Shown piece after piece: positions 1,859 through 31,990 of a stretch of DNA of 64,000 nt. The translations under genes were made by a program, and so were the position numbers. The number at the start of each line of letters is the position of its first letter. Position 1 is the first letter of the stretch. The notes below the pieces were generated by a model. That model was not told where the DNA came from, ran no database searches, and saw only the letters and a program-made list of their open reading frames with translations. The stretch comes from Trichodelitschia bisporula (Eukaryota > Ascomycota > Dothideomycetes > Phaeotrichales > Phaeotrichaceae), in NCBI GenBank assembly GCA_010356995.1, contig ML996704.1:41183-105182 (forward strand), given 5' to 3'.

Positions 1859-2870
1859 CTACGGAGCAAAGATGTTAGGGGCTACGGGTAAGTAGGCCTG
1901 GTGTGTGAGTGTGAGTGCGGCGACTTGGCACAGTGCCAAGCCCCATACAAATCCGGTAATGGTGCGAGCCCATGGAGCAGCAGAACCGGTTGTCATACCG
2001 TGACACCCGACACCAGAAACACCGAGACCAGCCGCTCTGAGATGGTCTGAAATCAGGAAAATTGTTCCCCAGGCCACTTCTGAGAATGCTGAATTCTGGC
2101 GCTGGTTCTCGAGAACGTTGATGCCTTTTTTGATCGTGAACGTGCAATTCCGTATGATAGCTAATGGCGGAGACAGCTTGTTAATCACACCCGAGAGGGT
2201 CACGATGGCGGCGTGGGGGTTGGAGCGTATGAGGGCGCCGGCGCCGCCTGTCCTGGATAAGCAGCTAGAACTACGAAAGGGCCTACGGGGCCTACTGGAG
2301 TCAGCCTGATCGTCACTAGCCTGCTACACACTAGCTGGTTGCACACTTCGGTCTCAACAGCCCCGACTACGTGCTTGTAGGTAAGAGATGCAGAGTGTGG
2401 GGTCGTGCGCAAGTGGCGCGTAGAAATGACACGGTAGGCGTACTGGCTGTGGATTGAAGGCTTGAAGAACGATGTAGGAGTTTCGCGTGAGTGGTTGTGC
2501 ATGGACGCAGCGTGAGAGGCGTGTAGAAATGGCAGTAGGCGTGCTGGCTGCGGATGAAGGCTTGAGAGAGGCTGGGTACTCCGGGCTGATCTGCCGCTGG
2601 CGGATCTCGCGTCTTAGGACGGCCTTGATAGGCTTGAAGTTTGGATATTCCGTCGACAGCGTGGGCGCAGACTCGATCGAGCCGACTAAGCGAGCGGCGC
2701 AGTCGGCGATATCGGGATGGACCCTGACCATGGTGGGGGGGGGGGGGTGGGGTGGAGGTTGCTGCAGTGTAGGCTTACGTATGCGCAATGGCGATAATGA
2801 ACGACAAGGCGACAGAGTGCCACGGGTAACTGGGATATCGAGTGCAACTGAATGCGTGACTGAAGTAGGG
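1859..2870 (-). CDS. Possible multi-exon gene or decayed gene, structure unresolved
   Basis: Three coding-looking blocks lie on the minus strand. Block one (about 2870-2779) ends with a hydrophobic stretch (LSFIIAIAHT). A candidate intron at 2724-2778 (GTAAGC...13 C...GTCAG) joins it in frame to block two (2723 to about 2560; starts VHPDIADC, contains STEYPNFKPIK). Block three (about 2265-1859) contains GGAGALIRSNPHAAIV, then a C-terminal hydrophobic segment (about 2000-1910), and ends at a stop at 1859. I could not find a convincing splice connection between blocks two and three, and a ~50-bp direct duplication (2415-2467 / 2516-2565) sits between them. No family is recognised. It may be a real small membrane protein, a pseudogene, or a chance of GC-rich sequence. 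Confidence 0.3.
2415..2565. repeat. Imperfect ~50-bp direct duplication
   Basis: Copy A at 2415-2467 and copy B at 2516-2565 share gtagaaatg...gtaggcgt(a/g)ctggctg(t/c)gga...gaaggcttga. They differ by small indels and transitions, with a period of about 100 bp. Confidence 0.7.
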
Positions 2871-2922
2871 GTGTGGGGGTGTGGGTGAAGTGGAGTGAAA
2901 AGCCTGGTGGGGCGGGATATTA

Positions 2923-3053
2923 GAGGCAGCGGCCCCAGAACCCATAGAGGGATTGGAGACGCCCGTGAGTCCTGGAATAGTCGGGGTAGCGTTATATGTA
3001 GGTATGCTGCGAGAGGCAGCCCCAGAATCCTGGAGGGATTGGAGACGTCCGTG
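2923..3053. repeat. Imperfect ~43-bp direct duplication
   Basis: Both 2923-2966 and 3013-3053 read gaggcagc, then cccagaa, then a variable part, then gggattggagacg(c/t)ccgtg. The spacing is about 88-90 bp. Confidence 0.7.
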
Positions 3054-3218
3054 CGGATGGTAAGGCGATTAGAGGGAGCGCCGTCCTAGGGCTGCGCGGG
3101 CACCGTGAATCCTGGGAATGGAAATGCAGCGGTAAGATTGTGCCGGGCCGCCCACCTCGTAAGGCATCGGCATCTTCCTCAGCTCTTCCGTATAGAGTTT
3201 GAGTGACGATGTATGTCG

Positions 3219-3362
3219 GAGTGTTGAAGTGTTGAAGTGTTGAAGTGGTGAGGTGGAAAGTGAATAGGGGAGGAAGGTGTGAGATATATGTGGAGAGTTG
3301 AAGTGGTGAGGTAGACTGAGAACAGAGGAGGAAGTTGTGAGATATATATGTTGAGAGATAGA
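3219..3362. repeat. Degenerate ~65-75-bp tandem repeat with gttgaagtg core
   Basis: The motif gttgaagtg occurs in close tandem, followed by two longer copies of gttgaagtggtgaggt(g/a)ga...gag(a/g)aag(g/t)tgtgagatatat. The stretch from about 3060 to 3815 otherwise holds no supportable gene. Confidence 0.65.
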
Positions 3363-3815
3363 GAGGTGGAGATGTTGAGGAGAAGAAGAAGAAGAGCAGT
3401 GCGAGGAAGATATTTATCAAGCAAGTGGAGGTCCGTGCTGACGTGGTTGCCATTCACGGCAGGCGCTATCGGTGGATGCGGAGTCAGCGTCGAACAGTGA
3501 GGAAGGCACGAGGGGGCAGTTCCTCACCGCTGCAAAGTCTCAGCCCGATACCGGTATGACGCCGTTTGCAAGGCGTCATCGGTGAGGGAACTTGATAGAC
3601 ACCATTCGAAGGCCTCGAAGGCACTCAATCCCCTTAAGCCTCCTTCAGCCTTGTCCACGGTATATAGCAAGTGATAAGATCGATTCTGCTGAACATAAGC
3701 GCTTAAAAACAACACAGGCCATCAATCATATCCACATCCCATCCCATCCCATCCATCCCACCGCCCAGCAGCGCAAAGAACAAAGCAAAGGGTATCCCCC
3801 TCCAACAACAACACA

Positions 3816-6313
3816 TCAATAATCCACAAGCGTCAACTTCCTCCCCACCCCCCTCCTCCCCCTAACCTGTTGAACCGGCGTCGCACCCCCAGCCTGCCCC
3901 TCCTGCGTCTCCTCCTCCTCCCTGCTCGCCCTCAGCGCACTCTGCAACAACCCCGCGTCGAAGAAGCCATACCCGCCCAACCCTTCATCATCACTATCAG
4001 AACTCACAGCAGACACCCTGCTACTCCTCAACCCATCACTAAAAATATTCCTTCCCCTCCTCTTCCGCCTCTCACTCGGCTCAGGCGGCGGCAATGAGGG
4101 CCTCACACTCGGCGCCCTCTGCGTTTGCCGGAGCAGTTTCCGCACTTCGAGGAAATACGCCTCGAGGCCTTCCACGAAGCGTTCTGTTTGGCGGTGCTTC
4201 GACGAGGCGCAAATCGCCACACTCCCATCCTTAATAATATATCCGAGCCCAAACCCATCGCCGGACGTCGGACCGAAGCCAAAGTGCCGTAGGCTCGGGT
4301 TGCCGCAGTTGCTCGTGCTGAGCACAGTAGTATTCATCCGCTCCCACCCCGCATCGCCAAACAGTGCGGGCATATGCGCAAGCGGCGGACTCGAGCGGCC
4401 CGACGAACTCGCGCGGAGCCGCGGTGGCGAACAACTCGTCGTCGGGCTCACCGTCGAACTCGGACTCGGTGACGTAACCGGGCTCGGCGCGTCCCAAAAC
4501 GCCTCCTGCCCCCGCTGCCAAAGACAATACAACGCATAAAGATGCCGATCATGCCCCCTCGCCTTCGCACACTCGCGCGTAACCGCAACATGGCGCTCAC
4601 ACGCCTTCCTCAAAGCATCAATCTTAGCTTGAGCAGGCTGATCCGCCCAAAACGTGCGCACGAACTCCACGCTCTCGTCCGTGACGGGGCGAATCGCCTC
4701 CGTCCTTCCGTGGTAGAAGGCTTTCGTCATGGCGGGCTCGTACACGCATTCTATCCGCCCGTAGAGCCCGTAGTACGCCGCTTGGAACGCCATTTGCACG
4801 AATGCGTCGGGGGAGAAGCCGCTGCCGGTCATGAGCGTCTTTCCGTAGGCTGAGAAGTCGAGGGTTGCGAATTCGGATTGCTGGATTAGATCCGCGAGAC
4901 GCGTCTCGGCAAACCGGAGTGCGGTCCCGAGTTCGGGCTCCATGTCCCACTCGAGTTTATGCGGCGTAGTCTGCGCGTCGCCGAACGACGCGGGGTCGCG
5001 CTTGCTCGGGTCCGGGCTCGTACTCGCCCACAAACTAGGTGCTTGGCCGTTAATCGTGCGCGCAAAGCGCAGAATCGTATCCGTGTACACGTCGCTCGCG
5101 AACCGCAGCACGGTGTGCCCATCCACGCCCGTGTGCTCGAAGTTAATCCCCGCGGACCCGTTCTTGCACACTATGATCTGCAACTTGTCATACCAGCGAT
5201 TGGTGCACGTGCCGACCTGGACGCCGCGCTCGACGCGGCTCGTCCCGCAGAGCATGTTCATGCACAGCGCGGACCCGGTGGCCGGCTCGGTGTAATCGAG
5301 ACACAGGACGAAGAGCGCGGAGTCGACGATGGAGAGACACTCGCTGTTATTGCTCCCCTCATCCCTTTGCAGGACATCGCGGAGTCCAGACCAGATCTTG
5401 CGGTTTTCGGTCGTGAGGACGCCGACTGCGCCGCGGGCGGCGTCTTGGATGGGCACCTGTGCTGCATCATCAATAATGACCTGCAGGTTCAGCGCGAGGT
5501 TCTTCTCTGAGATGATGAGGTCGGAGTTATCGTCCAGCACGTCGAACCAGTAGAACTGGCCGTGCGCAAGGACGACGATGTGTTTCGCAGCCGGGTCCTG
5601 TCCGATTTGGCAGCCCGCTTCGGTGGGGATCCGGGCCGTGCCGAAGAGTCGGCTGTACTGGTACATGTCCAGGGGCTGGCCGCGGACGGTGTCGGGAGGG
5701 AGTTCCTCCTTGCGGACGGCGCGGACGAAGGCGAGTGCTGAGACGACGAGGGATGCGGCGCGGGTGACTTGGTTGTTGCGGGCCGGGGTCGGGTCGTCTT
5801 CGAGGAGGAAGAAGGGGTTGAGGTTGAGGACGACGGGGTTGTCGTAGTTGAGGTACGAATCATACCCTGAAAGGGGTCAGCCTTGCCTCCTCAAACAAGT
5901 AAAAGAGAGGCACACGTACAGAACTGCTCAATATAATTCGCCTTCCCCTTCGCATACTTCCTCAACTTCTCCTGCAACTCGGGCCCATCCCCCCTCAAAA
6001 ACTCCGCCACCGCCGCCTTCGTCTCATAATGCTCCTTAGGCGTCTGCAGCGGCCTCAACGAATCAAGATACTTCTGGCACGTGCTTTCCAAATCCGGAAT
6101 CGGCAGTTCAGGCAGGCTGTCCTGGCTCGCGAACGTGATTCCCGGCCGTGAAGCCGGGTTCGTATATGCCCCAAGCGGGTTTTTGGAGCTTTCGGGGTAG
6201 GCCTGCGCGGAGTCTTTGGCGGCCTGCGGGGAGCGGGCTGGTTCTTCAGGCATGGTGGCGAGGGCGAGGGTCCCGTTTAGGGAGGTGGGGCGGGTGAAGG
6301 TACGGACTGCCAT
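3816..6313 (-). CDS. Carnitine O-acetyltransferase, cytosolic FacC/Yat2 type
   Basis: The protein transfers acetyl groups between CoA and carnitine for acetyl shuttling between compartments, needed in fungi for growth on acetate or fatty acids. Two exons, 6313-5920 and 5866-3816, flank a 53-nt intron (5867-5919, GTACGT...CAG) and give 814 residues; the junction creates the Trp of the conserved sequence before SYLNYDNPVV. The catalytic His lies in FEHTGVDGHTV (about residue 377). The STSNCG segment and the ending GFGLGYIIKDG are typical of the carnitine/choline acyltransferase family. There is no mitochondrial presequence and no C-terminal SKL, so a cytosolic location is inferred. A Ser/Pro-rich insertion before STSNCG and a long charged C-terminal tail (RRKRRGR, acidic patches) match the larger Yat2/FacC branch. 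The gene is divergent from RAD57. Confidence 0.93.
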
Positions 6314-7617
6314 GGTCAGTCAGGGCGGGGGCATGGGATGTAGGTACGGGTAGCAGTAGCAATGAAACGGGGGAGGCGTGGTGTTCAAGTACTACCCCTA
6401 GGCCCTGACACCGGGAGCTGGTGTCAGGGCCCGGGCGGGTGGAACGTGGTGCGGGATATTCACCGAACACATGGACGAAGGGAAGTCGGGTCAGGACAGG
6501 GCGGGACGTACCTCGTGGGAGCAGCGGGTGTGGCGGGAGATCAAGCCGCGGGCCTTTGCGCGGAGGGCAAGGATCAGCAAGCAGCCTTACGGCTACGGTA
6601 CAGTACGAAGAGCGGGTGGGCGTGCGGAATCGCGGGTGAACGATGGAATCTCGTGATTACAGCAGGACCCGTGATGAGGGCAGCGGGGAGGTTGATGGGG
6701 CGGAAAAGGAATGCCGCGGGAGATGCGGTTATGTAGGCAGTGCCGGCGGAGGGATTGCGGTGCGATTTGTACGGGGGCTTTTTGGGGGGCGATGGCGATG
6801 GACGTGTGAGCGCGGCTGAGGGGATGCGCTGGGTGGGCAATTGGTGGGGGCGGGGGAGGGGAATCTGGGGTCTCCACGGGGTGAGGGAGATGCGCGTGTG
6901 GGGTGAGAATATGGGGAAGCGGAAGCGCGGACGAGAGGAAGGTGTTTGAGGAGGGGGAGTTGCCGAGATGGAGCTAGCGGGTGAGGGGATTATCGGAGAG
7001 GACTGGGCGGATGGAGGGCGAAGCTGTGAGGGACTGAACTTGAATTTGGGGTTCGTGATATTGGCCGCTAGGGGAGGTGATGATGATACTGTGGAGTCGT
7101 CGTCGAGCTGTCAGAAATTAGACATCTGGGCACGAGACAGGACTACCAGACGGAGAAGATGATGCCGTTAACAACAGACACCGTCGACAGAACGGCACGT
7201 ACCGGTAGCAGTAAAAGAACAAGAAGTGAGAAAAGAAGTCAAAAGAGATCACACCATCCCATCTCCCCCACACGAGGTGATCTAACCTCTCACGATCGCC
7301 ATCCCGTGCTTCCCCGCCCTCAACCCCGCGATGCAGAGACACCCCCCTCCCCCCATGACGCAGCCGTACAGCCCTTAACGATCCAGACCGCGCTCGGCGC
7401 TGCACATGTCTCCCCTCCGCGCTCAACACCACGCGGGGATCTCCGACTGCCGCATCGGGCGCAAATACCACCACATCTCCCCATCCGTCCTTCGCGACGT
7501 CCCTCCCCGCGTTGCGCCATCCCGCGCACGCCTCCCCCGCCACCCCCCACGCCCCCTCGCGCGCCGTGCCCAAACACCGCCGCACCGCGTCATGCACACC
7601 CCCCCACCACCATCCCA
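6314..7617. promoter_or_regulatory. Divergent intergenic region between carnitine acetyltransferase and RAD57
   Basis: These 1.3 kb must hold both promoters. The RAD57 frame stays open upstream of its ATG to about 7159, but that part is low in family similarity and is taken as leader. The one structured element seen is the inverted repeat at 6401-6431. Confidence 0.5.
6401..6431. repeat. Perfect 12-bp inverted repeat (hairpin)
   Basis: The arms GGCCCTGACACC (6401-6412) and GGTGTCAGGGCC (6420-6431) are perfectly complementary around a 7-nt loop. The element lies about 90 bp upstream of the carnitine acetyltransferase ATG. It could be a dimeric activator site or a 5'-leader hairpin. Confidence 0.8.
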
Positions 7618-7999
7618 ATGACCGACCTCCTCCGGACACTACCCGATTTCTCAACGGCGCCCTTCTCGCACCTCCTCCCGTCGCTAGATCGCACGCATAT
7701 CACAACGGCCGATCTCCTCACCCTCGATGCCGGCGACGTAGCGAAACGGGCACAGCTCCCCCCCGCGGAGGTCGCGAAACTGACGCGGGCAGTGGTTGAC
7801 GCGCTACACACGGACTTGGGCGTGGGAGATGGAGTTGGGGATAAAGAGAATGGCGATGCGGGCCGAAAGGGAGATCTCAGTAAAGATGATGGTTTTCGGG
7901 CAATCAGCACGCTCGACCCGGTCCTCGACGATGCGCTGGGCGGCGGCATACCACGCGGCTTCGTAACCGAGATCACAGGCGCGAGGTACATCCCCATAT

Positions 8000-8056
<57 letters not shown>

Positions 8057-8874
8057 ACCACCAACTAACGCCCCCCAGCGGCGCCGGCAAAACCCAATTC
8101 CCCCACCCCCTCCTCCTCTCCTCGCAACTCCCCCCCAACCCCAACCCCCCTTCTACCAGTATCTACATCTCCACCGAAGCCCCCCTCTCCACCCCGCGCC
8201 TCGCCCAAATCCTCACCCACAACACCGCCCTCCGCACCCTCCCCTCAGCTCACTGCCCCTCCCTCACCAACATCCTCGCCATCCAGACCCCGGACCTCGA
8301 ATCCCAAGACCACATCCTTTACTACCAACTCCCCGTCGCCATAGAGCGGCACAGTGCACGCCTCGTAGTCATAGACTCCATCGCCGCAAACTACCGCGCC
8401 GAAATCGGCACCCGCGTCGCCGGTGGGCCGCACCCGCTCGCCCTCCGCCGCGCGCACCTCCAACGCACAGGCGCGCACCTCCGCTCCCTCGCCTTAAAAT
8501 ACAACATCGCAATCGTAGTCGCAAACCAAGTCGCCGACCGGTTCGAAGCGGAGCTCTCCCCCCGCTCCGGCGGCGACGGTATCACGCCCGACCCGCTTGC
8601 ATTGGATCATCAGCAGCGGTGGTTTACAGGCTGGGGAGACGGGCCCACGAGGGGCCAGCCCAAGACGCCGTCCCTGGGGTTGGTGTGGGCGAATCAGATA
8701 GCGGCGCGGATAGCGCTGGTGCGGGAGGAGGAGGGGGAGGGGGAGAGGAGGAGGTGGATGAAGGTTGTGTGGGCGGCGTGGTGTGCGGCGACTACGGGGG
8801 AGGGGGTGGAGTATGAGGTTTGGGGTGGGGGGGTTAGGGGGGTGAGGGAGGAAGGAGGTGTACCCGATGAGTGA
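7618..8874 (+). CDS. RAD57: RecA-family recombination protein Rad57
   Basis: This Rad51 paralogue assists Rad51 filament assembly in homologous recombination, normally as a Rad55-Rad57 heterodimer. Exons 7618-7985 and 8079-8874 give 387 residues. Family signs are LDDALGGGIPRGFVTEITG leading into Walker A, GASGAGKT with Lys127; Walker B LVVIDS (about residue 220); ALKYNIAIVVANQVADRF; and LDHQQRWFTGWGD with KTPSLGLVWANQIA near the C-terminus. The intron (7986-8078, 93 nt, GTACAT...CTAACGCCCCCCAG) splits the codon for the Walker A Ser123 and contains 56 consecutive C. The intron is a multiple of three and free of stops, so unspliced RNA would read straight through as polyproline. I chose the ATG at 7618 because similarity begins there. 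Confidence 0.9.
8001..8056 (+). repeat. 56-nt poly-C run inside the RAD57 intron
   Basis: Uninterrupted C lies between the 5' splice site and the CTAAC branch sequence at 8064-8068. Confidence 0.95.
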
Positions 8875-9526
8875 TGGATATTGAGGATGTCTTGAGGACT
8901 GAACCATAGTGATTAGTGATATCAAGCTGAGAGACGGTAGAGCCTGAGTTGAGTGTCCTGCAAGCTGGCTACTTAGCGAATGGCAGGATATTGGGATTTC
9001 ATGTATCACATGTCACGAAGCTTCAGCGACGAAAATGCATTCAACCTAAAAAACCGCACCAGCAACCAAAACACCAAAAACACCAAAAACACCATCACCA
9101 CCCCCGTGACCACACCATCGTGACCACCACGTGCATCTCACGGACCATCTCCCCTTCCACTTCCCCTCCCCACAACGCTCACTAGATTCTTAAACCAGAG
9201 CAACGAAAACCCAAACCCAACTCCTTCCGCCTCCTCATAAACCCAACCCAACCCATCCACCCAAACCAAGCCAAAACCACCCATAACCATCCACAAAGCG
9301 AAGCGAAGCGAAGAATTAAGACGCATCAAAGCCCATACGAAAAAAGTGCCAGGCCATACTTCAATATCACAAAGCAATTCCCATCGAAAAAAAAACGGTC
9401 CTATCCACCCCGTCAATCGATACCCCACCAGCCGAGTATCAGTGAGTAACAACCATCCAGTTTCGTAGCCGACAAAATCACACGCTTCCCACAAGCATCA
9501 ATACCAAACCCCTCAAACCATGACAC
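8875..9526. other. Convergent intergenic region RAD57 / CBF1
   Basis: This is 3' flanking sequence of two converging genes. It includes A/C-rich simple sequence (about 9050-9110, caccaaaaacaccaaaa) and one CACGTG at 9128-9133. I see no gene. Confidence 0.5.
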
Positions 9527-16955: not shown

Positions 16956-16957
16956 CT

Positions 16958-16996
<39 letters not shown>

Positions 16997-19278: not shown

Positions 19279-21583
19279 TCAAAGCACAACCTCCAACACC
19301 CGCTCCCTCAACCTCCCCATCTCTCTCTCCCTCTCCTTCAACGCACCCTCCGCCCTCAAACACCGTTCCCGCCAAGCATGCATATCCCCCGCGTCCTCAC
19401 CCCCTCCCTCAGGCGTTCCCTCCATCCCCAGCCTTATCGTTCCCTCAACTACCACGTCCCGCATGCTAAACACCCCTCTAACACCCCCCACACTCCCCGC
19501 CCACTCAACATCAAAGCTCTCCCGCACACCCTCCTCCACCTCCCCCTCGCCCCCCTCCTCAACCGGGCTATCATACCCATCCCGTCCCACGCGGAACCGG
19601 CGCACGTGCACCATCTTCCGCTCCCCCGCTCCCCTACCCGGCCCACCCAGCCCCAGCCAACTCGCCACAACCTCCCTCCCCTCCTCCGCAACCCTCATCC
19701 GGCCAAGCATAACCGCCGCGAGGGCCCTAGCCTCCGCACCCTTCATCCGCCTCTCTCGTCCCCTAACCTCCGCGCGGAGCAAATCCGCCGCCAATGCCCT
19801 CTGCAAATCCACAACCCACCCCGCAACCCCCGGCAACAAGGGCGGCTTCATCCCGCCCCCGCTGACCTGCACCGGCGTCTGCCCGTAGTCAGGCTCAGTC
19901 GCGCTGCTCGCGTCGCTGAAGAACGTGCTTGCCGTGCGGTGGGAGGAGGCCGTGTTCATTCCCGTGCTACTAGCCGTTGGCAGCGTGGCGGGCGTGTAGG
20001 CCGTAGTCCCGGTAGCAGGCGTTGGCGTGGCGGCACTGCCGTTCGTTACGTGAGGTGGGGCAGGAGGCGGAGGGCCGTCCAAGCGGCCGTTTACGAGCAG
20101 CGTCGGCGTAACGAGGTGCACCGGCCCGCCGGTGTGCGGCGGTACTTGCAATTGGAGCCGCTCGGGCCGGCCCGGCGGCGGGGGATTGGGGACGCGGAAG
20201 TGCGCCGGTGGGGCCGGGGGGGCCGGTGATGCGGAAGGAGATGCGCGGGGCGAGGGGCCCGCGGCGGACGGGGTGGAGATGTGGTTTCGGGAAAGGTCAA
20301 TGGTGGGTCCTTCCTTTGTCTTTGGATTTGCGGGGAAAGTGACGAAGGGCCCGTCGCGGACGGAGCGGTTGGAGGGCGGCCGGCCGCGTAGCTTGCCGCT
20401 CGCTGTCGTCGTACTGCTGGGCCAGGCGGAAGACACGGCGGGGCCGTGACGGCGGCGGGAGCGCTTAGACGTCGGCGTCAGGGTAGCTGCGTCGTCGAAG
20501 TCGGGGTGTGTGGAGAGCGGGGTGATGGCGGAGAGCGGGTGCGGCGTGGAAGGCGTCTCGTTGCGCCAGCGATAATGCGGGCCCGCGGGCGCCAGTTTCG
20601 TCCCCGGCGTGAGCGCGGACCACTGGTCAGCGCTGGGGAAGAAGTCGTCCGCCTGGGCGGACATGGGCATTGCGCTCGACGGGCAGGCGGAGTCCGGGTA
20701 GTTGAAGGCGACGGAGGTGTCGAGGTGCGGGCGCTTGGGCTCAATGGCCGACGCGGGGTCCATGTCGTCGTCGTGGTCTTCGGCGCGGCGGCGCCCGCGC
20801 TTGGGGCGGAATTTGGGGTCGAGCGCGCGGATGGCGAGGTCTTCTTCTAGCGGTACGCCGTCGCGTTGGTCTGGGAAGGGGTCGGTGGGCGCGGGGATGG
20901 CGCGGAAGTAGCTGTGCGATTTGCCCATTAGGTAGTCGAAGAAGGCGTCGATGTGGAGGGCGCGCATCCAGCGCTGCGGTGGGGGGTTAGTCTGGTTATG
21001 GTAAGGGGGGGGGGGGGGGGGGGGGGGGGGTGGGTGGGGGGGGGGGGGGGGGGGGGGGGGGCGGGGTGCATACTTTTAGGCGCACAGAGTACTGCTGCAC
21101 CTTCTGCGAACTCTGCCCCTTGTCTGCGGACGGGCGCTCCACGCCCAGCGCCAGCGCTAGCTCGGTCCAGGTCTTCACTTCCTTGGCCTCGTGCTTTTGG
21201 ATCAGGCCGAAGAGTGCGTAGGTGCTGAAGCTCTTGCCGTCGGATTTGGGGGGGGAGCGGAATACTTTGCGCAGCTCGGCTGTATCGACGCTCAGTGGGA
21301 AGGAGGGGTTGCAGTAGAGGATGAAGGAGATGTAGGCGGAGTCTAGGGTGTCGTCGCGGACGTCGGGCGGGGGGAGGGCGCGGTCGCGCGGGATGTAGGG
21401 CGGTCGGGTCGTGGGGTGGGGGGAGAGGGGGTTGAAGCGCGGGGAGGGGTTGGAGGGGGTTGAGGGGGTGGCCAGGGGGGGGCGGTCGTAGAGGTGTTGT
21501 GCGTGCTGATGTTGTTGCGGTTGTTGCTGCTGGTGGTGGTGTTGTTGATGCTGGTGGTGGTGTTGTTGATGCTGCTGCTGCTG

Positions 21584-21634
<51 letters not shown>

Positions 21635-21871
21635 GATATCCAGATGCGACGGCGCAGGCAGCGTCCGCGTCACCTCCATTGCATGCTCGACCGGCGACAC
21701 CGTCTGCCTATACGTCGTCGCGAAGGGCGGCGGCGCGGTATGCGCCGTGTTATAGGGTGCGTGCGAGGACATGTGCAGCGGATCGTCGGGGGGATTGAAG
21801 TCCATGGCTAGACGGGCGGAGACGGTGCGCGCGGTGCCATGGGGGTACGGGGAGGCAGAGGGCGATGTCAC
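19279..21871 (-). CDS. ABP2: ARS-binding protein 2 homologue
   Basis: Abp2-type proteins bind replication origins in fission yeast; the role in filamentous fungi is little known. Exons 21871-21074 and 20973-19279 give about 830 residues (808 if the ATG of MDFNPPDD is used). The N-terminal part has a long Gln/His tract from CAG repeats (about residues 80-125). The conserved domain follows (about 160-300): ILYCNPSFPLSVDTAELRKVF, KHEAKEVKTWTELALALGVE and SQKVQQYSVRLK, continuing after splicing as RWMRALHIDAFFDYLMG. The rest is disordered, Pro/Ser-rich, ending in a Arg/Glu-rich coiled-coil-like tail. The intron (20974-21073, 100 nt, GTATGC...CTAACCCCCCACCGCAG) lies inside the conserved domain and carries two C-runs of 26. 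The gene is divergent from the peroxisomal carrier. Confidence 0.85.
21005..21061 (-). repeat. Double poly-C run (26 + 26) inside the ABP2 intron
   Basis: The genomic strand shows G at 21005-21030, TGGGT, then G at 21036-21061. On the transcribed strand this is C, upstream of the branch sequence CTAAC. Confidence 0.95.
21570..21631 (-). repeat. CAG trinucleotide repeat coding polyglutamine in ABP2
   Basis: CTG repeats on the plus strand encode Gln on the minus strand, interrupted by one Glu codon and followed by mixed Gln/His codons. The length probably varies between isolates. Confidence 0.9.
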
Positions 21872-22780
21872 GACGCTGATAGTGATTGTCCTGGTTATAG
21901 CGACGCTGATGGACGTTCAGACGGGGTCGTGGGCGTAGAGATGCTGTCAAGCGCTTGTGTGTCCGAAGGGATGTTGTTGATGAGGTGTGAAACGAGATTG
22001 GGGATGGGAGACGATGGTGCCGCGCGAAAGTGTGACTTGCGGAGATGAGCGTGCTGCACCTCTAATTGGCCAGTCCGGGCACGTATTTTTAGACGAGCGT
22101 GGCCAATCACGCCCACCCGCTGTTCCTCTTTCAGCCTGTTCACGCACGGTGATGGCGCGGGTGCTGAATCTGGGGCGGATGGCGGCGACGCGCGCAAGTT
22201 GCTGCTCGGGTTTTGCGTCAAGAGGCGTATGGAGGTGGGCAGTGAGTTTCATCGTAGACGCCGAGCGAGACCCAATCAGCGGTGGCGCGCGCGCATGAAT
22301 CCAATGAGATCGTGTTGGCCCCAGGCACGGCCCGGCGGCGAGGCGTGAAGGCATTTGTGCAGTGGTCAGGCAGCATGGCGTCAAGGCAGCAAAATCCAAC
22401 ACGTTCAGGCATCACGGCGTCAAGGCAGCAAAATCCAACACGTTCAGGCATCACGGCGTCAAGGCAGCAAAATCCAACACGTTCAGGCATTCGCGCGTGT
22501 AATCGATAAGCGCCCCCCCTTCCCTTCCGTCACTCGCCCATGAGCTACCGAGGCAAAACGGCTCGTCTCCTCCGTGACGTCCTCGAACCGAGTTGTCCGA
22601 CAAAACCGACGTTCCGAACGCTGACGAAGGACGAGGCACATCGAGATCTAGTTGCGCGAGCTCGGATTCTCCCTTTCTGCTCTCCATCTCCTCCTGCTCA
22701 GGTTTTAAAAGCTCTTTGTCTTGCCAATACAGCGCATCCGCGATCAGACCATCCACACGATCCCCATCCCCACATCCAAC
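21872..22780. promoter_or_regulatory. Divergent promoter region ABP2 / peroxisomal carrier
   Basis: This 0.9-kb region between divergent genes contains the 39-bp tandem repeat at 22377-22490. No gene is supported; the short frames across the repeat are multiples of the 13-codon unit. Confidence 0.5.
22377..22490. repeat. 39-bp tandem repeat, 2.9 copies
   Basis: The unit starts GGCGTCAAGGCAGCAAAATC and continues with caacacgttcaggcatcac. Copies at 22377-22415, 22416-22454 and 22455-22490 are almost identical, which suggests recent expansion. The last copy is cut short. Confidence 0.95.
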
Positions 22781-22910
22781 ATGTCCACCACCAACACCCC
22801 CCAAGCCACCCAACCCCCCACGGCGCAGGTGCAGCAGCCGGCAAGCGACAATGTCGCGCACGCCGTCGCCGGTGCCGGCGGTGGTCTCCTCTCCATGGCC
22901 CTCACGTACC

Positions 22911-22965
<55 letters not shown>

Positions 22966-23868
22966 ATAGCTACCCCCTCATAACCCTCTCCACGCGCGCG
23001 CAAGTCGAATCCAAAAAAGCCCGCACCAGCACCCTCGACGCCGCGCGCGCCATCATCGCCCGCGAAGGCATCAGCGGTCTCTACGCCGGGCTCGACTCCG
23101 CGCTCTTCGGCATCAGCGTCACCAACTTTGTGTACTACTACTGGTACGAGTGGTCGCGGGGCGCGCTGGAGCGGCGCGCGGCCGTCACGCCGGGACGCGC
23201 GAGTCGTAGGCTAACGACGTTGGAGAGCATGCTGGCGGGGGCGATTGCGGGGAGCGCGACGGTGTTGATTACGAATCCTATTTGGGTTGTGAATACGCGG
23301 ATGACGGCGCGGAAAGGGGAGGAGCTCCCAGGTGGGGCGGGGGAGAAACAGAAGAAGCCGAGTACGGTGGCTACGTTTGCGGGGATTGTGCGGAATGAGG
23401 GGTTGAGCCGGTTGTTTGCTGGGGTGGTGCCGGCGCTGATTTTGGTGATTAACCCGATCTTGCAGTATACGATTTTCGAGCAGTTGAAGAATGCGCTGGA
23501 GAAGAGGAGGCGCGTTACTCCGGGGGATAGTTTTGTGCTGGGGGCGGTGGGGAAGTTGCTGGCGACGAGTATTACGTATCCGTATATTACGGTTAAGAGT
23601 CGGATGCATGTGGCCACCAAGGAAGGACAGGAGACTATGGGGTCCACGCTGCGGCGCATCCTTCGTGAGGAGGGATGGGGTGGGCTGTACGGCGGTGAGT
23701 TTGGCTCTGGGAGTGGTGAGGGCTGTTGCTGATGATGATGATTCAGGTATTGGGCCTAAGGTCACGCAGAGCGTCATTACGGCGGCGTTTCTGTTTGCGT
23801 TCAAGGATGCGCTGTATGAGTCTAGTGTGCGGCTGCGGCGGACGCTAGCGGCGCGCAAGGCAGTTTAG
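22781..23868 (+). CDS. ANT1: Peroxisomal adenine nucleotide carrier (Pmp47/Ant1 family)
   Basis: This mitochondrial-carrier-family protein brings ATP into peroxisomes in exchange for AMP/ADP, for fatty acid activation. Exons 22781-22905, 22970-23694 and 23747-23868 give 323 residues. The three carrier repeats are visible through their signatures: MALTYPLITLSTRAQ in repeat 1, NPIWVVNTRM in repeat 2 and YPYITVKSRM in repeat 3. These variants are those of the peroxisomal subgroup rather than the ADP/ATP translocase. The first intron (22906-22969) is GTACCT, 54 C, ATAG and splits the codon just before YPLITLS. The second (23695-23746, GTGAGT...CTGATGATGATGATTCAG) is ordinary. The ATG at 22781 has a good context (AACATGTCC). 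Confidence 0.92.
22912..22965 (+). repeat. 54-nt poly-C run forming almost the whole first intron of ANT1
   Basis: The 64-nt intron holds only GTACCT before and ATAG after the C-run. The reading frame on both sides demands removal of exactly this piece. Confidence 0.95.
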
Positions 23869-24450: not shown

Positions 24451-24788
24451 ATGAACTCCATCACCACCAACCCCTCCCAGCAATACAGGAACTCCTTCGT
24501 CGCAAGGGAATCGCTCGGTAACCGCCCTCTTTCCCCTCCTCCCTTCCTACCTTCTAACCTCAAGCAGAGGGCCGCGTCCACGACCCCACTGCCGGAAAGT
24601 CCACGAACTCCGGCATCCCATACTCCAAGATCCACGAGGTCACCTCTGGCAAAGGCGAAGAGCAGCGCATTGCAGAGGATCTAGCGGATCGCGGGGTGGA
24701 TGATGAAGGTGTCAGAGTCAGCCATATCGAGGATGTATGCTACGGGCCGATCGTAAGGGGGCCGGTTACGAGGAGCAGTGGGCAGTGA
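24451..24788 (+). CDS. Small hydrophilic protein, 95 residues
   Basis: Two exons, 24451-24517 and 24568-24788, are joined over a 50-nt intron (24518-24567, GTAACC...CTAACCTCAAGCAG). The spliced frame runs from MNSITTNPSQQYRNSF through a Gly/Ser/Asp-rich middle (GKSTNSGIPYSKIHEV, IAEDLADRGVDD) to VTRSSGQ and a TGA. It is very polar, with no hydrophobic segment and a single Cys, so it is probably disordered, like fungal hydrophilins or other stress-related small proteins; that comparison is an inference. A strong TATA-like element upstream and the clean splice signals support a real, perhaps inducible, gene. No family is firmly recognised. Confidence 0.65.
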
Positions 24789-25170
24789 TTGATGTAGCTT
24801 GACGCTGAGGTGTGAAGTTTAGCAAAGAAAGAATCCGATGTCACTAGAAGCATGAACGCCCTGGACATGCGAAGTCGTGCACACTGCCCAACGGCCATGT
24901 AAAAATGTGACAGCGCTATCTTTTCGAGGTCCCTGCTTCTTACTGAGCACAAACTTTGCCTATAAGCAGCTATAACTTTCCCACATGTCAGCTACGACTT
25001 TTCTGGCTGGCCCCTGCCCAGCCCCACGCACGCCCTCAGCCTTCCACCGCGCGGCAGAACCTTCTCCCGTCCCGCCACGCGCGGCTGTCCTCCACCTCAA
25101 CACCTCCCCGCGCCTAAACAATCCCCCAACACCACCACCTCTCCCACCACTTTCACTCCCACTGGCAGCC
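24789..25170. promoter_or_regulatory. Upstream region of the STRIP gene
   Basis: This is the promoter and leader. The STRIP frame is open upstream to 24985, but the ATG at 25171 (GCCATGGCC) has the better start context and is followed by an acidic N-terminus. Confidence 0.45.
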
Positions 25171-27711
25171 ATGGCCGACGACAACGAGAACGAAACCGAC
25201 ACCCTCCCCGGCCTCCTCACCGCCGCCTCCCTCTCCACCCCCAACCCCCCCCTCGACACAGTCGAAGCAGCGCGCGCGGACCTGCTCGGTGACAAACCCG
25301 GTCTCCCCAAAGAGCGCATCCCGCTCCCCACCCGCCCCGGCCTAGGCCGCAACGCCTCCGTCCCCACCTCCTCCGTCTCCACCACCCCTCCCCCGCTCCC
25401 GCCGGGCACCATCCTCGGCGAGCCGCGCCTGACATCCCCCGTCAGCCCCAGCAGCCGCATGGCCGGCAGCGCGTCGCCGCTCGACACGACGGGTTTGCGC
25501 GGGAACCCGCTGAGGCAGGACACGCCGATACATGAGGAGCGGCAGGATACGCCGATTATGGGGGCGGGGAGGGGGGATACGCCGATTGTGGGCAGGCTGG
25601 ATACGCCGATTCTCGAGAGCGGGGGGTATGGGGGGGGGCAGGAGGGGGATAGTCCGGCGGTTGGGGGGGATGTGCAGGATAGTTTGAGCTTGATGCAGTT
25701 GAGGCGGTTGGTGGCGGAGATGCCGAGAGTGCAGGCAGCGCCGTATGCGTTTGTGTATCGCGATGCGGCGATGTTGGCCGAGGAGGTGGAGGAGTGGTTT
25801 GCGTACAGTGTGGAGGAGAGGGCGCGGATTCTGAAGACGCATTCGAGTTTTACGGTTGAGTGGGGGCAGTACAAGAATCGGGTTTTTGTGAATTATGATG
25901 AGGGGACGTATGATTGGGTTAATGCGGCGCCGGAGCAGAGGGAGGAGTTTATGAGGAGGTTGGTGGGGGGGTTGCGGGAGGTGGATTTGGAAAAGAGGCT
26001 GAGGCAGTTGGAGGCGCTGCTGTATCTGGTCCTGGGGTGCTGGTATGAAGTTGCGGGTGTGCCGAAGCCGGAGAAAGAGGGCGAGGAGGAGGAAGAGGAG
26101 GAGGAAGAGGAGGAGGGGGAGATGTCGCCAGAGGCGGAGCGCGTCAAGGCGGTCAAGGCGGCGTATGCGCTATCCGCGTTGCAGATTGAGTGGATCAAGA
26201 GCAACGTCCTGCTGCTGTTCGAGTGCGGCGGCGTACAGGCCGTCTTCGATACAGCGTGCGCGGCGTGTCTGCGCGAGTGCTCGGTCGATCCGACGCGCTT
26301 CGACAACAGCGCCGTGCAGAAGGAGGCGGAGCAGCGCGAGGCATGGTGTGCGCTCACGGCGTTGTACTTTTGCATTGAGGTTGCGCGCAGTTGGGAGGAC
26401 GAGGGGAAGCGGCTTGAGCTGCGGGCGGAGCTTCGTACGTACACTGCTTTCTCCTTCATCAGGCTCACACTAATCATGAACAGTGTCCCTCGAACCAAAC
26501 CTCCTCATCGCTCTCTCCGAAATCGTCTCCAAGATCCGCTGGGACGACACGATCCAGCTCCCACTCCTCAAAGTCCTCCTCACGCTCTGGAAATCCATCC
26601 TCGTAATCATCGGCGGGCTGCCCGACGCCGAAGACGCGAAGAAGTCCTTCCTCGACCCGGAAGCTACGTACAAGAAGCCGCCGCGCGGGCCTATGATCAC
26701 TGCCTCACCGCTCGATTACCATACCTTTCGGCAGGAAATCAGCTCCAAGTACCCGGCCTACAATCCCCCGCCGGCGTACTTCCCGCTCGAGCCGGATGAG
26801 AAGTCGATCCTGCCACCGCTGCGTATTTCGACAAAGCCGCCTTCCATGCCTACTGCGCAACCCGCGCACGGTACGTCTATTCTCCACCAGCCGGTGCACA
26901 TCGCCACGCCGATGCCCTCCCCCCCCCCCTCCCCGGCCGCAGGCAAAGGCACCAAAAAGCAAAACTACCAAACGAACAACATGTTCCCCTTCCTCTACCC
27001 ACCCCTCGACGCAAGCAGCAACCAACTCGGCGGCAAAGGGGCCACAGATCTACAAGACGCGTTGGTCAGCCGCAAATGGGAGGGTCCCGAGATTCCAACG
27101 AGCATTTTGGAGGCAGCAGAGTTGTTTGCGGAGAGGATGCGGGCGACGAGGGGCTTGAAGCAGCTTTGGGAGGAGAGGGATGAGTTTATGAAATTTGAGC
27201 GGGGGTGGACGGATTTGGAGGGGGAGGGGACGGGGGATGGGGAGGGGGAGGAAGGGGAGAGGGGGGATGATGGGAGCTTTGAGAAGGTAGAGAAGAGGGT
27301 TGAGAAGTTACCGAAGCATACGTATGATGGGAGTGTGAGCGAGAGGCTGCAGAGGGTGGAGGACTTCTACGTATGTTTCCTGCGGTCAAGGAAAGTCTAA
27401 GCTAACCCGCACAGCGCGACGGCCTCCCCCACCTCCAGTCCATCGTCATGGTCCTGCTCAAAACCATCCTCGCCAACGTAACAGCGCTCATCACGCAAGC
27501 AAACGGCCAAAACGGCTCAGGCGGCTTCCACTTCGAAGGCGCCGCAAAGCCAGAGAACAACGGCGGGTCGGGCGCAAATCTCGACACCGCCCACATCTCA
27601 ACCGAGGAGCTAGACGGCATGCGCAGCCAAGAGATCACAGCAAAAGCAGTCTCGGGCATGCTAATCGTGCTGCTGAAATGGTTCAAAGTCTCGCGTGCGT
27701 CCCCTCCACCC

Positions 27712-27753
<42 letters not shown>

Positions 27754-28616
27754 TTCCCTCCTCCAGTAACTCCAGCTAACCCGACCAGACATCCTCAAAT
27801 TCGAATACCTAACCCAGCTCCTCGTCGACGCAAACTACATCCCCATGGTGCTCAAACTCCTCCAAACACAGGAAACCGAGAAAATAGTCAATTACCGCTG
27901 CGAGCGCGACGCGCTTAACTTCTTCCACTACTGTCGCGCGAACTCGCGCGCCGGGCTCGCGGAAGTAACCGGTGGGGGGACGGAACTCGATCTCGATGAT
28001 GATGACGACGAAGCTGCGCCGCCGCCCGTGATTAAGCTACGGCGTGACGAGCCGCGCGCGCCGAGTCCCCCGCGCGCACCGCCGGTGGTGCCCGAGGTCG
28101 ACGAGCTGGGGATGCCGACAACGGAACTACCCCTCCAACCCATCACAAGCTTCAGCTGGCGCAACTTCTTCTCCGCCATAAACTTCCTCCGCGTGCTGCA
28201 GAAAGTATGCAAGCACAAAGCGCACCGCAACCTCATGCTCATAACCTACAAATCCGCCACCTACCTCAAAAAAGGGCTCAAAGTCCCCCAACCGGAGCTC
28301 CGTCTCTACACGCTCAAGTTATTCAAGAACCAGGTCCCGTACTGCGGGCGCAAGTGGCGGCAGAATAACATGCGGGTTATTACGGCGGTGTATTTGCATT
28401 GTAGGCCCGAGCTGCGGGATGATTGGCTGTGTAATGGGGATGTGGATGCGGATGTGGAGCAGAGTGTGCCGCTGGAGCAGAGTTTGCGCGCGCTGACGCA
28501 TTGGTATAATTTGAGGAGGTATCCGAGGCAGATGGGGGCGAGGCCCGGGGTACTGGGGGAGGAGGCGGCCTTTTTTGCGAGGGAGGTGGAGAGGTTTGGG
28601 TGGGATGATGCTGTTG
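25171..28616 (+). CDS. STRIPAK complex subunit STRIP (Far11/HAM-2/PRO22), 3' end lost in assembly gap
   Basis: STRIP is the scaffold partner of striatin and PP2A in the STRIPAK complex, which in filamentous ascomycetes controls hyphal fusion and fruiting-body development. Exons 25171-26434, 26484-27370, 27415-27694 and 27789-28616 give about 1086 residues before the gap. The N1221 region is at about 175-490 (SLMQLRRLVAEMP; YAFVYRDAAMLAEEVEEWF). The DUF3402 region includes WFKVSH|ILKFEYLTQLL across an exon junction, and the strongly conserved end reads SFSWRNFFSAINFLRVLQKV, SATYLKKGLKVPQPELRLY and GRKWRQNNMRVITAVY. Acidic polyGlu and Asp tracts are present. Introns of 49, 44 and 94 nt have normal GT/AG signals; the last carries 40 C. 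The missing end is probably short, since the family ends soon after this point. Confidence 0.9.
27714..27753 (+). repeat. 40-nt poly-C run inside the third STRIP intron
   Basis: The intron at 27695-27788 reads GTGCGT..., the C-run, a CT-rich part, CTAACCCGACCAG. The frame and the family sequence on both sides fix its limits. Confidence 0.95.
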
Positions 28617-28716
28617 NNNNNNNNNNNNNNNNNNNNNNNNNNNNNNNNNNNNNNNNNNNNNNNNNNNNNNNNNNNNNNNNNNNNNNNNNNNNNNNNNNNN
28701 NNNNNNNNNNNNNNNN
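28617..28716. other. Assembly gap of 100 N
   Basis: Exactly 100 N is the usual placeholder for a gap of unknown size. The STRIP reading frame enters it open. Confidence 0.99.
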
Positions 28717-29887
28717 TATGGTATCGCTACGGCGGACTGGTGGGTCTGGTGTGTCTGGTGTGTCTGATATGTATCCGCGATATCCATAGATGGTAATACG
28801 AAATGGACTGCACTTGCCGACCTGCGAGGCCGTGGTGTGGACCATAGGCAGCTGATGCCGTTGAACTGCGACATGCAGACGGCCCGGCCCTGGACGGGAG
28901 CCTGCTGACCCAGCGGTCGTGCGTGCCGATATCAGGGTTGGGAGTGCTTGGTGGTGGGTCGGGGCAAGGCGGACCAGACCTGAGGGGTATGCGGTTCATG
29001 GCATTCTGCTTACTTGCTTACCGTACTTACTTTCGGGATAATGCGGAAGTGCTGGTGATGGTGATGCGGGAGTTGGTGGTGGTGAGGTGCGGGCCAATAG
29101 GCGCGGCTGTGCGATCGATCGCTCTTCTGCGCTGCGCTGCGCTGCATATTGCCGGCGCTCATGCATGCGGTATTGAACCGGGGTGATTCTTCACTGAAAT
29201 AGCATGCATATGTTTGGAGACAAGCCGGTTCGTCGACTCGTCGAGGCCATCACTCTGCGCCTCTCGCATTTCACGCTGCCGGCAGCACGAAACGACTATT
29301 ATACTCAGATGGCGGCCTCGACTGTCCGTCCATACTCATCCGATTCCCATTCTATCCACGGCCTACGGTGGTCCTCGGATTCCCATCCTATCTGATATTC
29401 TTCATTGTGTGGTGCGGGAGGCTGAGGCTGAAGCGCCCCCTCCCCCTATCCCCCCCAATCCAACCCCACCACCACCCCGCCCCCCTACCCCGCCCCCGGC
29501 CCACTCGTCACACGCCCCGCCCACTCACCTACCCTTTCACAATCCCTCCCGCCCTCCCTCCCGCCGCACTGCAATGCGCGAGGGCGCGTGCCTGCGGTTG
29601 GTTCCAGGATAAGGTGGTTCTCCCGGTGCGGCGGGAGCGTAGGCATATCAAGGCAATGGATTATCAAGGCATAAGGTGGCTTGAGAGGATGGGTTATCAA
29701 GGAAGTTGAAGGTGGCTTGAGAGGACGGGGGCTGAAAGAGATGGGGGGTGGTGAGACGGGGCTAGTTTGACAGCCATGGGCTGAGGGAGGAGTTAGGGGG
29801 GTACGATAAGCTTTGGAGATATATATCCACCCCACCATCTTCATCTTCAACGCGGTTTGCGCCCTGACATCCGCTCTGTGTGACAAC
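28717..29887. other. Intergenic region after the gap
   Basis: No gene is supported. Short direct repeats are seen: gtctggtgt in tandem near 28745, gcgctgcgctgcgct near 29130, (t/c)ggattcccat... near 29340-29390, and ggtggcttgagagga(t/c)ggg twice at about 29672-29730. Confidence 0.45.
29818..29826 (+). promoter_or_regulatory. TATA-like element before the 29888 gene
   Basis: GATATATATCC is isolated in GC-rich DNA, about 65 bp upstream of the ATG. Confidence 0.4.
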
Positions 29888-31233
29888 ATGGTCGACATCG
29901 CCTCGCCGCCCATTACGGGCATACAAGCGCCAGACAGCGACGTGACCGTCTGGTTGCTGCGTATCGCTCCACCATCTTCAACCTCACCAATATCCACATC
30001 ACCGGCGCTCTACCTCACCGCTATACCCTACCCGCTGCACGCCCTCCCGCCCTTCACAGTCCTACACCCTACTCCCTCCTCGGCCCTTAAGAAGCGCGTC
30101 ATAATTAATGACACCCAAACACTTACCGACGCCATCACACTCTCCTACCTTCAGCGGCACCGCGATCACGACCACAATGCGTACTTCTTCCATACCAGCC
30201 TCAGCATTCCCTCCCTCCCGCCTGCAGACTCATACCACCTCCTCCCGCGCATCTACGCCTCTGTCCGTCCCCCCTCCTCCTAATTCTAAACCCACAAAGC
30301 AAACCTAACTAACCCTGAACCTAGGCGGTATCAATCTCCATCCTCCTCCCCCCCTCAACCCGCCTCCCTTCACCCAGCACCCTCACCGCCCAAGCCCTAA
30401 CTCCTCTCGCCCATCACGCCCTATGGTCCGACGTCTCCACACTCCTCGCCCTTACCTCCCCCGCACCCAAGTCACTATGCACACCCACCCGCTCACTCCC
30501 CTGGACCGCCGTCGAAGAAGCAGTCGCAAGAATCCGGGCCGTCCTCGCCGGCGACAGAGTGGCGCATAACTTGCCCCTCGCTCGACTAGCGGAGTCTCCG
30601 GCAGCAGCGGGAATCGGCGCTATTGAAGCATGGAGGGCGTCTAAAGGCGGCGTGAGGGACGCGCTGCGGTGCTTTTCGGCGTACCTTAGGACGGGAGAGG
30701 AGGTGGGACGCGTGCTCGGCTTAGCTGGGGCGAGGGGGGAAGGGTACGCGGATGTTCTGGCCGGGGTGGTGCGGAGGGGAGAGGTGGATGGTGTTGAGGG
30801 CTTGAGGGCTTTCGCGGTGGAACTGGAGGGTTGGATGGGTGTGGGTGGGCGGGAGAGGGAAGAGGGGCTGGCAGAGGCGGAGCGCCTGCTTGAGTGGGTA
30901 GGCTGGCCGGAGGGTGTGGCACAAGGCATGGCATGTGGGATGGGACTTAAGGGAATGCTCACCAGTCCAGCCGAGATCGGAGGTTTGGCAGCGTGTGTGC
31001 AGGATATGGCAGGGACGATGGAGGGGAGGTGGCGAGGCGTTTGTGCTGCGCCGGTTTTGAGGGAGGTTCAGGCGGAGGATGAGGTCGAGGCTGAGGTTGC
31101 GCGGCTTAGGGCGCTACTTCGTGATTTGGACGAGTTAGAGGGGTGGTGTCGCCAGGTGGGCGAGGTGAGGGCTGAGGTTGCGGGGGTTGCGGGGGCGATT
31201 CGGACGGATGTTGGATTGAGCGACGGGGACTGA
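29888..31233 (+). CDS. Hypothetical protein, two exons, helical C-terminal half
   Basis: The proposed exons are 29888-30262 and 30325-31233 (427 residues). The intron 30263-30324 starts GTCCGT, a weak donor, but has CTAACTAACCCTGAACCTAG at its end, and the frames match. Exon 1 contains DVTVWLLRIAPP and SALKKRVIINDTQTL. Exon 2 is Ala/Glu/Arg-rich with long predicted helices, such as VEAEVARLRALLRDLDEL. There is no signal peptide, membrane segment or known motif. The ATG context AACATGG is good. The product is not recognised. If the intron is wrong, two shorter products would result. Confidence 0.55.
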
Positions 31234-31922
31234 GGGTGTTCGATGTCGGTGACGGGAACCCGCTGAGGGGAGGGTGCTGGTTTGCAGATTTCACATGGGG
31301 CTGACTTGTTGATGACTGAGGGGTATGGAATGGCATAAGAGGCCTCGGTTGTGTCGACAGTGATCCAATGGTGATGCTGTCAAGGCATCAAGTCCGGGGG
31401 ACGCGAGTCGGGACGTTGACATGCCGTGGACAAGGTCCCGGGTCCGAAGCATGTAGGAATTACCAATCCCCGGCCGCTCCCCGGCATCGATGAAGTAGTG
31501 GGTCGAGTAATGACGCGATCAAGGCCGCAAGTACGGAAACAAGCGACGTTAAACGTTGTAAGGCTGTGGACGAGGTCCCGAGTCCGGCCAGAGGATTCAC
31601 CAATTATCAGCTGCTCGCTACGTTCGATGAAGTAATACTGTTTTTCCGAACCAACGTCTACCGTGAGCAGCGAGGGAATACTGACTCGCCAGCCGCCGTG
31701 AGCCTGAGGGCATCAAACGTAGCCTCGTCGCTGCACGTGAAGGCTAAGGTTAAGCTTTGAGAAGCTTCCGAGGCTTGTGGGTTCGGTGATCGGTGTTGGT
31801 ATTGCTGATGGCCCATGACGACTTTGCGTTTTGCTGCTGAAAGTTAGCAACGGTGTCGTGCTTTCCTGCGAGGCTGGCGTGAGGCTGTCCTGTCCACCAT
31901 GAGCTAAGCCAAAGTGTAGCAG

Positions 31923-31932
31923 GTAAACAACC

Positions 31933-31969
<37 letters not shown>

Positions 31970-31990
31970 CCCACAATCCTCGAACTACAG
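31923..31990 (+). other. Orphan intron-like element with 34-nt poly-C
   Basis: The sequence reads CAG|GTAAACAACCT, C at 31934-31967, then AACCCACAATCCTCGAACTACAG|G. Size, donor, acceptor and the C-run match the genic poly-C introns here, yet no ORF flanks it. A noncoding or leader transcript on the plus strand would explain it. Confidence 0.45.

Follow-up and report, generated by a model that had tools for sequence, protein, structure and literature searches.

Genes and homopolymer runs in the window

The window, by which we mean the whole 64-kb stretch of contig ML996704.1 analysed here, has a GC content of ~59% and contains long runs of C inside introns of several protein-coding genes. These poly-C introns, together with the codon composition of the exons around them, are the subject of the present analysis. 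The fungal genes in the window are RAD57, MGA2/SPT23, ABP2, an ANT1-like carrier, FAR11/STRIP, CRAT (carnitine acyltransferase), NAA35, QCR2, RPC82, a P4-ATPase and SEC16. The host is a GC-rich and probably filamentous fungus; its fungal origin and the gene names ANT1 and FAR11 are in part our assumption, and the carrier gene at 22781..23868 is presumably ANT1/PMP47. The genes with supported poly-C introns are:

7618..8874, + strand: RAD57 gene, 387 aa once spliced
19530..21805, - strand: ABP2 gene (ARS binding protein 2); a call of a tiny last exon is excluded
22781..23868, + strand: mitochondrial-carrier-family gene (ANT1-like), 323 aa, Pfam Mito_carr 3e-51
25171..28789, + strand: FAR11/STRIP gene with N1221 and DUF3402 domains, holding a gap of 100 N

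This gap, the single one in the window, lies at 28617-28716 within the modelled FAR11 coding region, and the frame downstream of it is uncertain. Hand-trimmed models of 12 genes yielded a set of 18 introns. An acyl-CoA dehydrogenase-like gene near 41-42 kb and other open reading frames were left unmodelled, so the intron list is incomplete. An unconfirmed gene model at 9.5 kb enters the intron anatomy, the composition correlations and the skew and tract counts; it was left out of the third-position block test and the restart test on 17 introns. For the anatomy, the outer ends of RAD57 and the ANT1-like gene are approximate, with intron limits unaffected. Gene finders may stumble in such sequence, and a simple one did not call RAD57.

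Runs of C are found at 8001-8056 (C56), 22912-22965 (C54), 27714-27753 (C40) and 31934-31967 (C34), and runs of G on the + strand at 16958-16994 (G37), 21005-21061 (G26+G26) and 2735-2747 (G13). A count of runs across the window thus recovered all the runs named in an earlier note on this DNA, at the lengths it had given. In 30 windows simulated with an order-3 Markov model the longest C or G run was 13, whether the long runs were kept in the training text or taken out. The runs of at least 26 are far beyond chance and, as pure repeats longer than chance, qualify as mononucleotide microsatellites; the C13 at 2.7 kb, equal to the simulated maximum, is not beyond chance. Introns modelled in coding sequence make up 1.4% of the window (runs excluded), and four of the six loci with runs of at least 26 lie inside them (P ~6e-7).

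The earlier statement that no run lies in coding sequence is correct for runs of at least 13, but a C11 at 26919-26929 is coding in the FAR11 model. A looser gene calling placed an intron over this C11; that intron is without a branch point and its 5' site is weak. Similarly, comparable runs of A or T are indeed missing, their maximum in the window being 9, but short sense-G runs do occur: among the runs of at least 8 in modelled exons, five are C and one is G.

Introns that carry the runs

Four coding introns had been described as carrying poly-C within limits fixed by reading frame and protein family. This description was borne out for all four:

7986..8078, + strand: RAD57 intron, 93 nt (3n), GTACAT...CTAAC...CAG, C56 at 8001-8056
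20974..21073, - strand: ABP2 intron, 100 nt, C26-ACCCA-C26 on the sense strand, branch point CTAAC
22906..22969, + strand: ANT1-like intron 1, 64 nt, GTACCT-C54-ATAG, C54 at 22912-22965
27695..27788, + strand: FAR11/STRIP intron 3, 94 nt, C40 at 27714-27753, branch point CTAAC

Each has GT-AG ends and a protein family that continues through the splice join. In the case of RAD57, the join falls within the Walker A motif, where the alignment to the Rad57 chain 9q2c_B of the Protein Data Bank (PDB) is gapless. In the case of the ANT1-like carrier, few residues precede the join, the alignment to UCP1 runs through it, and splicing raises the Mito_carr score from 138.5 to 171.6 bits. The DUF3402 profile is unbroken through the join of FAR11 intron 3, which is also covered by the alignment with STRIP1 chain 7k36_I. 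The Abp2 profile, split into two halves (1-101 and 101-170) without splicing, becomes an unbroken match over 1-170 (2.7e-81) upon splicing. Retention of the RAD57 intron, which is open and 93 nt long, would preserve the frame; the ANT1-like, FAR11 and ABP2 introns are of length 3n+1, so that retention shifts it.

Some sequence details accompany these introns. Directly 3' of the RAD57 intron, 8079-8120 reads GAGKTQFPHPLLL and places two prolines in the P-loop helix, where the PDB chain has none. The two 26-base runs of the ABP2 intron (21005-21061), separated by 5 nt, amount to two copies of a 31-nt unit. An origin of the four introns as transposed, introner-like elements was considered and rejected: with C runs of at least 5 excluded, the longest word common to any two of them is 5 nt.

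Regarding anatomy, the runs start at +16 (RAD57), +7 (ANT1-like), +20 (FAR11) and +13 (ABP2) after the 5' splice site. Four other introns have shorter tracts in similar places (C9 at +8, C5 at +9, C5 at +8 and C7 at +18). A YTRAY branch point motif is present in 17 of the 18 introns, in 16 of them 8-14 nt from the end; the sole candidate in FAR11 intron 2 lies 33 nt from the end. In the RAD57, FAR11 and ABP2 introns, the run is located between the 5' splice site and a normal branch point of the CTRAY type, which is 9-13 nt from a normal 3' end (in RAD57, the branch point A is 10 nt before the intron end). No YTRAY motif, and near the 3' end no CTRAY, was detected in the whole 64 nt of the ANT1-like intron. 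Without their runs, the FAR11 and ABP2 introns would have the usual size, 54 and 48 nt.

Three further elements had been counted as introns of the same plan:

2735..2747, - strand: C13 candidate, intron status unsupported, length within the random maximum
16958..16994, - strand: C37, ~600 nt upstream of the modelled MGA2 start, intron status unsupported
31934..31967, + strand: C34, outside all modelled genes, intron status unsupported

Their best intron scores on the C strand, -0.7 (31.9 kb), -0.5 (MGA2 leader) and 1.2 (2.7 kb), are within the range of random noncoding sequence (600 positions, median -1.0, 80th percentile 2.0). In each case the G strand gives the higher score (0.9, -0.4 and 2.1, respectively), and the 'sense' orientation of these runs is therefore an assumption. 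The three elements should be left out of both the intron tally and the evidence for strand bias.

Strand bias of intronic C tracts

According to the earlier note, the run is C in the RNA in every case. This applies to the four supported introns (four of four, P 0.125), while in the other three the orientation is assumed. Shorter tracts extend the picture: four or more C in a row occur in 10 of the 18 introns and four or more G in none (two-sided sign test, P 0.002), against 149 such C tracts and 150 such G tracts in modelled exons. Among the homology-confirmed introns (n=11), seven have a C tract of this kind and none a G tract. Eight of the 18 introns are without a C tract of four or more, and the 14 run-free introns contain 195 C and 180 G overall. 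Altogether, the sense-C bias of intronic tracts is moderate, with one 64-kb window as the sole basis of the orientation statistics.

Five weaker intron calls, which lead to tiny or unsupported end exons, were at first excluded from these counts and are absent from the restart tests below:

19466-19529: ABP2
48601-48661: RPC82
48719-48878: RPC82
54532-54591: P4-ATPase
63848-63891: SEC16

Two of these have four or more G (G6, G4) and one has C4; five looser calls contribute one C11 and two G4.

Third-position polarity and its restart at introns

In the genes between 3816 and 63847, on both strands, third codon positions are arranged in alternating C/A-rich and G/T-rich blocks, which in bins of 50 codons reach 92% C/A or 96% G/T. 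Compared with within-gene synonymous shuffles, the block variance gave z values of 41 for FAR11, 34 for the ANT1-like gene, 28 for CRAT, 23 each for RAD57 and NAA35, 21 for ABP2, 16 each for g35 and SEC16, 11 for the P4-ATPase, 6 for MGA2, 2.7 for QCR2 and 0.4 for RPC82. Codon positions 1 and 2 track position 3 weakly (rho 0.21 and 0.30). Local C-G skew in 200-nt windows has a standard deviation of 0.37 at 16-32 kb and 0.22 at 48-64 kb, compared with ~0.09 for independent bases. As a separate observation, the standard deviation of strand asymmetry is 0.35 at 1-40000 and 0.23 at 40001-64000, and all runs of at least 26 are in 1-40000.

The polarity is directional along genes and, in most of them, starts anew at introns. 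The C-G skew is +0.38 in the 100 nt upstream of start codons and -0.47 over the last 100 nt before stops; similarly, it is -0.20 in the last 50 nt before an intron and +0.23 in the first 50 nt of the exon after it. A is more frequent than T both before and after introns, and at the level of whole nucleotides the restart is limited to the C-G component. To describe third positions, a score of C+A minus G+T was taken over 30 codons on each side of the intron. At the 11 homology-confirmed introns the score rose by a mean of 0.67, with nine positive, a mean that 10,000 random placements in these genes never reached. Over 17 introns the rise was 0.53 (13 positive, 0/4,000 random placements), and without the four poly-C introns it was still 0.51 at 13 introns (0/4,000). 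In exons of at least 40 codons (n=27), the first codons (up to 30) had a score of +0.37 and the last -0.35, the first exceeding the last in 22. Exceptions are QCR2 (with three introns) and RPC82, which are flat, and ANT1-like intron 2, which is reversed; the long exons of the P4-ATPase and SEC16 flip without an intron. Several introns come from the same gene, so the restart observations are not independent.

RNA structure could be related to these blocks. Local RNA folding was weaker than in synonymous shuffles (12 each) in six of eight genes, namely RAD57, ABP2, ANT1-like, FAR11, CRAT and NAA35, with z values of 4-12; RPC82 and QCR2 showed a z of 1.7.

As a tentative proposal, which we regard as possible rather than probable, splicing or intron position might reset a strong regime of strand-asymmetric mutation or selection, so that each exon repeats the polarity from C/A to G/T and poly-C represents the extreme of the C side. 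The restart may stem from mutation linked to transcription or from selection for open RNA. Introns have been proposed to shield exons from R-loops (PMC1863416), and another intron hypothesis comes from the literature on gene skew (PMC3118952). A gain of sense G/T with distance from the intron would fit the R-loop protection of PMC1863416; the C/A excess right after introns would demand something more than such protection alone. Were the restart general, co-transcriptional splicing would leave its record in compositional polarity, and a reset inside a long exon might indicate where an intron was lost. Introns are invisible to translation, so the restart would also make it testable whether fungal gene skew stems from transcription, translation or RNA structure. 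The restart of skew at introns therefore merits follow-up more than the runs themselves.

Fit of the runs to local composition

The composition of introns, with runs and splice sites removed, is correlated with the composition of the exons on either side (rho 0.83 for all 18 introns, 0.72 when the four poly-C ones are excluded), and the longest C run per intron tracks exon C/A bias (rho 0.89 and 0.79, respectively). The exon starts after all four poly-C introns are strongly C/A, with scores of +0.72 to +0.85. When the six long runs are oriented by their C, the 3' flank is C-rich, with a mean skew of +0.46 over 200 nt, and the 5' flank is on average neutral; at C5-9 sites (n=231) the two flanks are equal, and a flank difference as large as that of the runs was obtained in 5 of 10,000 draws of six. 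As these introns lie in a C-biased zone, sense C is what would be expected of their runs.

Origin of the runs

The runs are classed here with intronic pyrimidine-tract repeats, a known kind of element. We consider it somewhat more probable than all other readings together that they are slippage expansions in a C-biased, splice-tolerant zone of GT-AG spliceosomal introns. A short stretch of C behind the 5' splice site would have grown into a mononucleotide repeat of 26-56 C, most likely by replication slippage. The sense orientation would follow from the local C/A bias, combined with C tracts being better tolerated than G tracts close to the 5' splice site. In most genes here introns are switch points from G/T to C/A composition, with the poly-C introns on the C side, and neither a function of the runs nor a special process acting on introns would be required. 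Of the origins suggested earlier, expansion of intronic pyrimidine tracts fits best, given starts at +7 to +20 and shorter tracts at similar places in four introns; a splicing- or transcription-coupled process that makes C is not needed, since the positions of the poly-C introns are those at which the sense strand turns C/A-rich. The accompanying remark on R-loops had the direction wrong, as it is G-rich rather than C-rich RNA that favours R-loops. Long intronic poly-C of one polarity is unusual and could provide handy markers of slippage and of splice-site tolerance.

Several observations weigh against slippage expansion. The ANT1-like intron minus its run is 10 nt long and without a branch point, and the RAD57 intron minus its run is 37 nt, compared with 44-76 nt in the other 14 introns; part of the RAD57 run must therefore be original. 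After the C56 intron, RAD57 continues as GKTQFPHPLLL, compared with GKSQLLMQLAL in PDB Rad57 (9q2c_B), and this pair of prolines within the P-loop helix may point to a sequence error or to strong pressure towards C. FAR11 intron 2 does not fit the tract position, as its C5 sits after the branch point. The CRAT intron and FAR11 introns 1 and 2 have no long run, yet their downstream exons score +0.67 to +0.79, so lying in a C/A zone is not enough. Compared with C5-9 sites, the 3' flank taken by itself stands out less (P 0.025), and the flanks of the ANT1-like run are reversed (5' +0.38, 3' +0.22). Adding the five weaker calls changes sense-C versus sense-G introns to 11 to 2 of 23 (P ~0.02), and with the five looser calls to 12 to 4 of 28 (P ~0.08), both P values being worked out by hand. 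Finally, pure-C runs fail a definition of the polypyrimidine tract that requires three T (PMC5677156).

The main rival to slippage is that the runs are artefacts of assembly or base calling, or short C tracts that were inflated, e.g. when gaps were closed with low-quality poly-G/poly-C reads. This is a real possibility, albeit a rather unlikely one. The ANT1-like intron looks as though its interior had been overwritten, leaving no branch point, the two ABP2 runs are both exactly 26, and the RAD57 prolines follow directly after the run. Furthermore, poly-C or poly-G of at least 30 was within 200 nt of an end, an artefact-like place, in 196 of the 240 public stretches listed (two scans, 120 listed each; stretch ends do not always coincide with contig ends), so artefacts of this kind do occur. 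In contrast, the runs here are internal: none lies at a contig end or gap, and 864 nt separate the N gap from the nearest run. Their placement in introns is far beyond chance (P ~6e-7), normal branch points remain in three of the four introns, other introns carry shorter C tracts at similar places, and there is no reason for an artefact to follow introns. Nevertheless, the earlier argument from orientation bias against an assembly error goes too far, given that the ANT1-like intron is without a branch point, and at least one run is odd enough to warrant a check of the assembly.

It is improbable, in our judgement, that a process coupled to transcription or splicing enriches sense C at introns, with poly-C as the extreme and the exon-wise gradient from C/A to G/T as its trace. 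Such a process would account for C/A-rich third positions after introns and G/T-rich ones before (rises of 0.67, 0/10,000, and 0.53, 0/4,000), and the weak tracking of codon positions 1 and 2 and the continuation of skew into the flanks of starts and stops are as mutation pressure would produce. However, a restart is missing in QCR2 and RPC82, the change at ANT1-like intron 2 is in the opposite direction, and the long exons of the P4-ATPase and SEC16 flip where there is no intron. Moreover, at whole-nucleotide level only the C-G part restarts, with A above T on both sides, selection against local RNA structure could also produce the blocks (six of eight genes, z 4-12), and introns sharing a gene are not independent. 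A role of the runs themselves, as a splicing or expression element, e.g. bound by poly-C-binding proteins, or as a length-variable switch, seems very improbable, even though all four introns have their run after the 5' splice site and the open 93-nt RAD57 intron could be retained in frame: the other three introns shift the frame on retention, 8 of 18 introns lack a C tract of four, and no pathway common to the genes is apparent.

A search for relatives with the C-terminal part of FAR11 gave 529 pattern matches in genome_contigs, of which none was confirmed, and 68 in viral_contigs, likewise with none; an exon of the ANT1-like gene had no match among plasmids.

Other features of the window are a CAG/polyglutamine tract in the N-terminal part of ABP2 (21504-21631) and tandem repeats at 22366-22490 (39 bp x 3.2) and 35009-35103 (48 bp x 2).

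Comparison with known systems

Pyrimidine tracts of fungal U2-type introns are known to lie mostly between the 5' splice site and the branch point (PMC5677156, which quotes Kupfer et al. 2004). In Fusarium, 83% of polypyrimidine tracts are between the 5' splice site and the branch site, the majority at a distance of 8-40 nt from the former (PMC5677156, which quotes a definition of at least 6 nt, at least 3 T and no A). The introns described here resemble these fungal U2-type introns in their GT-AG ends, a CTRAY near the 3' end and a tract close behind the 5' splice site (PMC5677156). They differ in that the tract is pure C and 26-56 long, whereas the Fusarium tracts are 6-25 nt and contain T, and in that one intron, the ANT1-like one, is without a branch point. 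In Daphnia, the sense strand of introns likewise favours pyrimidine motifs, but these are poly-T, CT and other T-rich motifs rather than poly-C (PMC3152781). Mononucleotide runs of more than 30 are also described in genes of several fungi, although coding regions without introns were studied there (PMC2621210).

Regarding composition, a C-to-G polarity of whole genes is already published for fungi. Opposite GC skew at gene ends, including fourfold sites, promoters and 3' untranslated regions, is described in unicellular fungi (PMC3315797), and C skew near starts in fungi and plants (PMC555766). A restart at introns was not found described in the literature searched, which also yielded nothing on within-gene third-position skew in fungi; in PMC3315797, the word 'exon' is absent and 'intron' occurs once. 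The genes in the window share with these gene-end skew systems a coding strand with a bias to C at the 5' end of genes and to G at the 3' end (PMC3315797, PMC555766). Unlike in those systems, the polarity here restarts at introns within genes, and some blocks exceed 90% C/A or G/T at third positions.

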